Of a DNA stretch of 64,000 nucleotides, positions 1,699-2,175 are shown in pieces. Location: assembly GCF_023051165.1 (NCBI RefSeq), contig NZ_JALKIG010000008.1, forward strand, positions 1 to 64,000, written 5' to 3'. Position 1 is the first letter of the stretch; every line of letters begins with the position of its first letter. The notes below the pieces were generated by a model. It was given only the letters and a program-made list of their open reading frames with translations, ran no database searches and was not told the origin of the DNA. The stretch is from Veillonella sp. KGMB01456 (GTDB lineage Bacteria; Bacillota; Negativicutes; Veillonellales; Veillonellaceae). Position numbers and translations under genes: made by a program.

Positions 1699-1727
1699 TT
1701 GACAATGTATAAAAATCATGTTACTAT
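1699..1727 (+). promoter_or_regulatory. Sigma-70-type promoter of the cobalamin riboswitch transcript
   Basis: TTGACA at 1699-1704 and TACTAT at 1722-1727 are separated by 17 bp. Transcription would begin about 25 bp before the riboswitch core. Confidence 0.7.
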
Positions 1728-1756
1728 ACGTGTATAGAAAGTATCAAATAAATAAA

Positions 1757-1955
1757 ATACATAGTTGGGAATAGGTGCAGAAATGCATAATAGAGAAGTC
1801 GGTGTAAGTCCGACACGATCCCGTCACTGTAAGGCTGAGCGAATCTCATTTAAGTCACTGGGTAACACTGGGAAGGCGAGAGGAGCGGTGAAGCTAAGTC
1901 AGGAGAACTGCCTATTCATCATTCACCATTTGACCTACGAGCGATAGGGAGGAGA
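1757..1955 (+). promoter_or_regulatory. Cobalamin (B12) riboswitch
   Basis: The B12 box appears as AGTCAGGAGAACTGCC at 1897-1912, close to the family consensus. The core CCGTCACTGTAA, the GGTGTAAGTCC segment and an ACTGGGAAGGC block also lie in the expected order. CCTAT and ATAGG flanking a 30-base loop (about 1911-1947) fit the downstream regulatory arm. A terminator follows at 1965. An open frame runs across this region but has no RBS and is a by-product of the RNA. The next plus-strand protein gene is mfd, which has its own promoter, so this riboswitch has no obvious protein target. Confidence 0.9.
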
Positions 1956-1964
1956 ATCATATAT

Positions 1965-1997
1965 CCTTTTTCGCATGCGTCGGAAAAGGCTTTTTTA
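1965..1997 (+). terminator. Intrinsic terminator of the cobalamin riboswitch
   Basis: CCTTTTTCG at 1965-1973 pairs with CGGAAAAGG at 1981-1989, followed by a T-run at 1991-1996. Its position right after the aptamer suggests B12-dependent premature termination. Confidence 0.8.
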
Positions 1998-2175
1998 TTG
2001 CCTAAATCGATGATGCATGTGACACCCGTACCGGTCATGGCTATGGATATTTGGTATTATCACGCAAGTGTTAATATATTGTCATGATAATGTATGGGCG
2101 TACATTTTCATCATCTCCTAATCAAAGGCTCTACAAAATACTGTGATGGGTATTTTGTAGAGCCTTTGACCTTTT
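1998..2175 (+). ncRNA. Candidate structured small RNA under B12 riboswitch control
   Basis: Readthrough of the riboswitch terminator would produce only this stretch before a second strong terminator (arms 2123-2141 and 2150-2168). It contains a hairpin TATTATCAC-GCAA-GTGTTAATA at 2055-2076 with a GNRA-type loop and one mismatch. The flanks GATGATGCATGTGACACCCGTA (5' side, about 2009-2030) and the segment ending TCATC at about 2117 can pair in blocks. The longest peptide frame has no RBS. Riboswitch-controlled small RNAs are known elsewhere (EutX, Rli55), but this RNA matches no family I recognise. The alternative is a worn remnant of a lost B12 gene. Confidence 0.5.
2123..2174 (+). terminator. 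Strong intrinsic terminator
   Basis: A 19-bp perfect stem (2123-2141 with 2150-2168, loop of 8) is followed by ACCTTTTT. It would end any transcript that escapes the riboswitch terminator. Confidence 0.8.

Follow-up and report, generated by a model that had tools for sequence, protein, structure and literature searches.

Organization of the locus and its riboswitch

The window, by which we mean the whole stretch of 64,000 nucleotides of Veillonella sp. KGMB01456 that was analyzed, carries a cobalamin riboswitch aptamer at positions 1756-1929 (+). The aptamer scored 102.9 bits (E 1.2e-24) against Rfam family RF00174, over the gathering threshold of 31.5 bits, and thus belongs to this family. 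A sigma-70-type promoter, TTGACA-17-TACTAT, was placed at 1699-1727 (+) by a promoter scan, and a TTGAC(A/G)-17/18-TA hexamer pattern was recognized by eye at the same place in other Veillonella clades among the alignment rows listed. The aptamer is followed by a P13-like hairpin region (GACCUACGAGCGAUAGGGAGG, 1932-1952, +), which was kept in all 12 species checked, and by the intrinsic terminator that the riboswitch is predicted to control (1965-1996, +; stem 1965-1989, then a T run). The 3' arm of the P13-like hairpin has an alternative partner in the 5' arm of this first terminator, with which it can form an antiterminator (1941-1953 paired with 1964-1974). The antiterminator was possible in 12 of 12 species checked, with energies from -8.7 to -14.2 kcal/mol, and in every one of them it was mutually exclusive with both P13 and the terminator. 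These mutually exclusive helices place the element among the cobalamin riboswitches with a transcription-termination platform (OFF switch). Since an antiterminator that excludes P13 and the terminator is the usual OFF-switch design, the small RNA encoded downstream should be made when B12 is low.

Beyond the first terminator lie about 125 bases with the potential to form hairpins and then a second terminator (2122-2176, +; stem 2122-2169, then a T-rich tail), after which come a tRNA-Leu gene on the opposite strand (2238-2322, -) and mfd from 2536 (+). No protein gene was found on the riboswitch strand between the riboswitch and mfd in the window. An earlier sequence-only reading of this DNA had described the same layout, namely a cobalamin riboswitch with its terminator, a stretch of hairpin potential with a GNRA-type hairpin, a second strong terminator and an opposite-strand tRNA as the only gene beyond, and all of these elements were recovered here. 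Elsewhere in the window, a 242-aa ORF at 443-1171 shows an apparent signal peptide and has no Pfam match.

Structure and noncoding character of the small RNA

The conserved body of the putative small noncoding RNA was delimited at 2004-2121 (+) by fold statistics, a covariance model and genus-wide conservation. The predicted fold of 1998-2122 reached -40.1 kcal/mol, whereas 200 dinucleotide shuffles gave -27.6 +/- 2.9 kcal/mol and none of them folded as well (z = -4.3). Covariance model R1, whose training set includes the window sequence, matched 2045-2121 with 87.4 bits (E 1.2e-17). The RNA would be about 120 nt long, separate from the riboswitch and ended by its own terminator; other species have a terminator of different sequence at the corresponding place.

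Three elements were recognized in the RNA. Hairpin H1 (GUAUUA-U-CAC-GCAA-GUG-U-UAAUAU, 2054-2077, +) consists of the GNRA-capped core CAC-GCAA-GUG at 2061-2070 within an outer stem (2054-2059/2072-2077). In the alignment of 19 distinct sequences, 98.8% of its cells were paired, the six outer pairs were kept in all sequences, and the inner pair varied among CG, GC and AU. The covariation score was 0.135 against 0.055 for shuffled alignments (0 of 500 as high) and fell to 0.04 or less with the partner slid; because double changes occur in one pair only, this covariation support is real but thin. Across the genus H1 is capped by GCAA, GUAA, GAAA, UUCG or a longer extension. Hairpin H2 (AAUGUA-UGGGCG-UACAUU, 2089-2106, +) exposes a GGGC-containing loop, and its positions 2091-2104 form a 14-nt complement of the pocR leader. 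The 3' pairing tail (AUUUUCAUCAUCUCCUAA, 2104-2121, +) is antisense to the Shine-Dalgarno/start region of mutA; its consensus, UCAUCAUC(A)UCCU, stands directly before the terminator and was kept by every clade but the MAG clade. The fold prediction for the V. ratti clade has some of the tail paired internally, with the RNA's own 5' arm, and about 11 kcal/mol would be needed to open this pairing.

Two other readings of the stretch were considered and rejected. A small protein was discarded as sister species do not share the frame, length and sequence of the ORFs that cross the core, and an internal promoter at 2051-2080 was discarded as a hairpin insert in the V. parvula clade alters the hexamer spacing. 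None of the Rfam sRNA families reached its gathering threshold over 1930-2240, and at a relaxed threshold only weak chance matches were obtained. By its sequence features, the RNA thus appears to be an independent, noncoding unit with its own terminator, as is typical of trans-encoded sRNAs.

Distribution and genomic context

Covariance-model searches detected one copy of the riboswitch-RNA unit in each of 28 Veillonella-family genomes (28/28) and in 0 of 33 genomes from three other families of the order, the genome search having used stricter filters that very diverged copies could escape. By BLAST, relatives in four clades (V. ratti, V. sp. CHU740, MAG and V. parvula) have the complete arrangement; the genome of the window falls in the V. 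ratti group, with V. ratti and V. seminalis as its nearest records. An exact-pattern scan with the RNA core over 84,980 prokaryote species matched Veillonella records and, in addition, only two MAGs, labelled Veillonellaceae and Negativicutes. The downstream neighbours, with gene names assigned by eye from translations, vary with the clade: in two clades the unit is followed by mfd, in a third by MATE or ADP-ribosylglycohydrolase genes, in V. magna by an integrase, and in the MAG clade by tRNAs with an MFS gene. The riboswitch and the RNA stay together despite these different neighbours. Judged from these comparisons, the unit is conserved, stand-alone and autonomous across the Veillonella family.

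The sequence-only reading had favoured an on/off switch for a trans-acting RNA and had named as grounds for dropping it a B12-transport gene at this spot in relatives together with a lack of conservation of 1998-2122. No B12-transport gene was present at the locus in any relative compared, and the 1998-2122 sequence was found conserved next to the B12 riboswitch in all the family genomes searched, so that the idea of a B12-switched trans-acting RNA gains support from both sides.

Complementarity to mRNA leaders

Candidate targets were ranked by duplex energy against a background of about 350 translation-start regions, taken from 400 kb of one genome per clade, and by an accessibility measure that includes the opening cost of both RNAs, against 150 regions. 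For the V. parvula clade the RNA and the targets came from one genome and the background from a near relative. A full-length duplex calculation with accessibility over-extended the duplexes and was discarded in favour of a compact version. Three genes stood out, and their complementarity to an RNA encoded far from them exceeded the background.

The first is mutA, encoding the large subunit of methylmalonyl-CoA mutase, which was noticed through a coding sequence near another H2-like match. In the three main clades its start region reads (T)AGGAGGATGATGA, and the tail of the RNA is antisense to its Shine-Dalgarno region. In most of the V. parvula clade 19 of 20 bases pair; V. sp. CHU740 reaches 16 of 17, and the window's genome 18 pairs that leave a single G bulged. 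Among about 340-360 start regions mutA ranked 2 (V. parvula), 2 (CHU740) and 4 (window's genome) by duplex energy; with accessibility it ranked 3, 4 and 1 of 153, respectively. It also turned up unprompted, by chance, in the background samples of the V. parvula and V. ratti clades. The pairing is weak in the MAG clade (a 7-nt run). A similar AGGAGGATGATGAA start region is found at mutA in families of the order without the RNA, which means that this sequence is not conserved solely for pairing, and the RNA may have evolved towards a pre-existing mutA site.

Several further observations concern the mutA genes. In three loci of the RNA-less families, the mutA leaders contain a TTTTTAGGAGGA(T/A)GATGAA start region, and these families could have an unrelated RNA of their own. 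The coding sequence of the upstream CoA-transferase contains, some 95 nt ahead of mutA, a GCCCATACA stretch that complements the H2 loop in all clades (loci L200-L211); it may reflect coding constraint or a second pairing site, and as it sits within conserved coding sequence it was not counted as a target. A second methylmalonyl-CoA mutase operon, on contig C47 of the window's genome, has a strong B12 riboswitch ahead of it (locus L001, 853-1030 onward), and a B12-dependent enzyme behind what is ordinarily an OFF switch is unexpected. A riboswitch upstream of MCM in Veillonella is also reported in a metatranscriptome paper (PMC7160235).

The second gene encodes a protein of about 200 aa of the NIR/SIR siroheme type (NIR_SIR). 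Scanning V. parvula-clade genomes for complements of the tail pointed to a leader common to several species before this gene, and its site, GGATGATGATGAATA, occurs throughout the clade except in V. montpellierensis, two species having one A replaced by G. The NIR_SIR leader of the CHU740 clade is without the tail site and instead has ATGTACGCCCATACA, a 15-nt exact complement of H2 that ends just before the Shine-Dalgarno sequence. The pairing runs extend over 15-19 nt in 8 V. parvula-clade species and over 16 nt (one G-U) in 6 CHU740-clade species. NIR_SIR ranked 1 in both clades, by duplex energy and accessibility alike, although it had been found by a seed pattern search, which gives the rank some circularity in the case of the tail, though none in that of the CHU740 hairpin site. 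Neither V. montpellierensis nor the MAG and V. ratti clades have the site; for the clade that includes the window, NIR_SIR came 135th of about 360 and was rejected as a target. That one gene is matched through two unrelated pairing sites in two clades provides the strongest single argument for pairing in trans. Separately, contig C5 of the window's genome (locus L006) has a B12 riboswitch ahead of the gene for a cobalt chelatase of the CbiK type, which shows an apparent signal peptide. Sirohydrochlorin is the substrate of CbiK enzymes, in keeping with the notion that it is diverted from siroheme when B12 is low.

The third gene was obtained by searching for complements of H2, which, besides the RNA itself, returned a single site per genome, with no more than one mismatch, in three V. 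ratti-clade species; in the window's genome, too, it was the sole such near-match. The site, TTGTACGCCCATACA, lies about 30 nt before the start of an AraC-type regulator with a PocR domain (Pfam PocR, E 4.5e-37) and forms 14 perfect pairs with H2 in 6 of 7 V. ratti-clade species, being absent from V. magna. Because the protein scored 267.7 against the NCBIfam PocR equivalog, below the cut-off of 500, it is named PocR-like here. Its gene is divergent from an operon for the large and medium subunits of a diol dehydratase and a reactivase, and the protein is likely the activator of this adjacent B12-dependent operon. The leader ranked 10 by duplex energy and 8 with accessibility in the window's genome. 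Both this leader site and the NIR_SIR site of the CHU740 clade can fold into a small hairpin whose loop, CGCCCA, is the exact complement of the UGGGCG loop of the RNA, and these complementary loops suggest that pairing starts as a kissing interaction.

Proposed function and alternative explanations

Taken at the level of sequence, a family-wide small RNA controlled by a B12 riboswitch is real and its candidate targets are well supported, and we consider it likely that the locus encodes a stand-alone, B12-switched sRNA that pairs in trans with leaders of mRNAs for B12 use. When B12 is plentiful, cobalamin would bind the aptamer, P13 would dock and transcription would stop at the first terminator; when it is scarce, the 3' arm of P13 would pair with the 5' arm of the terminator and the polymerase would read on, yielding the RNA of about 120 nt up to its own terminator. 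The RNA would then pair with its target leaders and block ribosome loading, with the tail covering the mutA Shine-Dalgarno region, the tail (V. parvula clade) or the GGGC hairpin (V. sp. CHU740 clade) engaging the NIR/SIR leader, and the GGGC hairpin engaging the pocR leader in the window's own V. ratti clade. The best model is probably a B12-sparing sRNA of the RyhB kind, made at low B12 to shut down B12 spending. With somewhat less assurance we also favour the wider view of a genus-wide, multi-target antisense RNA that silences mutA and, depending on the clade, a siroheme enzyme or PocR, using two separable, target-swapping modules, the tail and the kissing-type GGGC hairpin. If so, silencing of the siroheme enzyme could make sirohydrochlorin, the precursor common to both pathways, available to B12 synthesis.

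Among the alternatives, the one with the most weight, itself unlikely, is that the RNA is B12-switched and conserved but has other true targets or partners, the pairings seen here being secondary or fortuitous. In its favour, the targets were sought in a sample of about 350 start regions per genome, with the conserved seed as a partial guide, and some predicted targets are limited to certain clades; against this stand three independent B12- or tetrapyrrole-linked matches with top ranks in separate clades and the matching of one gene through two different pairing sites. We see little prospect for the view that TGTA-N6-TACA, which occurs in the RNA gene and in the pocR and NIR_SIR leaders and has palindromic arms, is a DNA operator of a common repressor, since in both targets the central six bases exactly complement the RNA, invariably in antisense orientation, and do not form a shared core, the V. 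parvula clade reaches NIR_SIR via the unrelated tail, and the mutA start is paired by the tail only.

ANTAR RNAs consist of paired hairpins with hexaloops that have A1 and G4. The sequence-only reading had likened the RNA to EutX and Rli55, and in a literal form of this likeness the RNA would be a sponge for an ANTAR-type antiterminator and would titrate an ANTAR protein when B12 is lacking. The proteins needed for this are at hand, as the window's genome encodes one ANTAR protein in the eut cluster and another beside a histidine kinase, and every genome examined in the order encodes at least one. The RNA itself fits poorly: a six-base loop is found only in H2 and only in part of the genus, where it begins with U or A or lacks the first base, and H1 ends in a variety of tetraloops or in longer stems. 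Furthermore, the eut cluster itself contains a weak B12 riboswitch, located between the adenosyltransferase gene and eutG, and a sponge would leave the leader complementarities unexplained. We therefore hold the sponge to be improbable and retain from the likeness the logic of a B12-switched RNA, without a convincing ANTAR-type dual hairpin. It is harder still to believe that the riboswitch is the leftover leader of a lost transport gene with unconstrained sequence downstream. The lack of a same-strand protein gene before mfd in the window would agree with this, but the downstream RNA is conserved and structured family-wide, the second terminator is always present, and no species has a transport gene in between; the covariation and the family-wide search contradict it.

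Comparison with known regulatory RNAs

In logic, the closest parallel to the proposed trans-pairing sRNA is RyhB, the enterobacterial iron-sparing sRNA, which is induced by scarcity, controlled by the Fur protein and pairs with several mRNA leaders. Both would shut down the use of a scarce cofactor; RyhB is switched by Fur, whereas here a riboswitch in the same transcript would act, and no sequence homology is claimed. EutX of Enterococcus is an RNA under a B12 riboswitch that binds the ANTAR protein EutV through dual hairpins.

Besides EutX, the RNAs known to be under B12 riboswitches are AspocR and Rli55 of Listeria, of which the noncoding Rli55 sequesters the ANTAR protein EutV via dual hairpins (review PMC8079631). 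According to the same review, AspocR of Listeria monocytogenes is an antisense RNA of about 1,400 nt encoded opposite pocR, which is stopped by B12 and in its absence lowers the level of pocR, the activator of propanediol use (PMC8079631, citing Mellin 2013). SreA is a Listeria RNA that arises from a SAM riboswitch and acts in trans; its action on prfA is mentioned in the review (PMC8079631).

The Veillonella locus shares with Rli55 and EutX a B12 riboswitch that controls a noncoding RNA and not a gene, but the ANTAR dual-hairpin motif is unconvincing in it. With AspocR it shares the proposed circuit, from B12 riboswitch to noncoding RNA to less pocR, but the Veillonella RNA is short, encoded far from its targets and seemingly has several of them, and in the window's genome it lies on a different contig (C8) from pocR (C7), not opposite to it. 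Like SreA it would be a riboswitch-associated RNA acting in trans, but SreA is the terminated riboswitch itself, made with ligand, whereas the Veillonella RNA is a separate module that would be made without ligand. By these comparisons it is similar to AspocR, Rli55 and EutX in apparent purpose, not in mechanism. A description of the Veillonella RNA was not found in the full text of open-licence papers, and the parts of a structured-RNA survey that report Veillonella motifs name the ilvD, potE and gltD motifs only (PMC8632094).

If the proposed model is true, Listeria and Veillonella have reached the same chain from B12 riboswitch through RNA to pocR by different routes. Riboswitches are usually viewed as controls of the neighbouring gene; here one would run a regulon via a diffusible RNA, as a B12 counterpart of RyhB. 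Veillonella is an abundant propionate producer of the mouth and gut, and methylmalonyl-CoA mutase is a central step of propionate fermentation, so the model would explain how these bacteria match fermentation to B12 supply. The genome of V. parvula SKV38 carries the unit and the species is genetically tractable, which makes the model directly testable.

Two other riboswitch arrangements were observed during this work. A cobalamin riboswitch below the Rfam threshold (30.2 bits; loci L007, near 1501-1637, and L061) lies on contig C24 of the window's genome, flanked by a PduO-type adenosyltransferase gene and a eutG-like gene and with EutS/EutV/EutW-like genes downstream of it. EutX occupies the same position in Enterococcus, and by analogy a second B12-switched, EutX-like RNA in this genome is possible. 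Several loci of other families in the order, L037 among them, have cobalamin riboswitches in tandem, spaced by about 250 bases.
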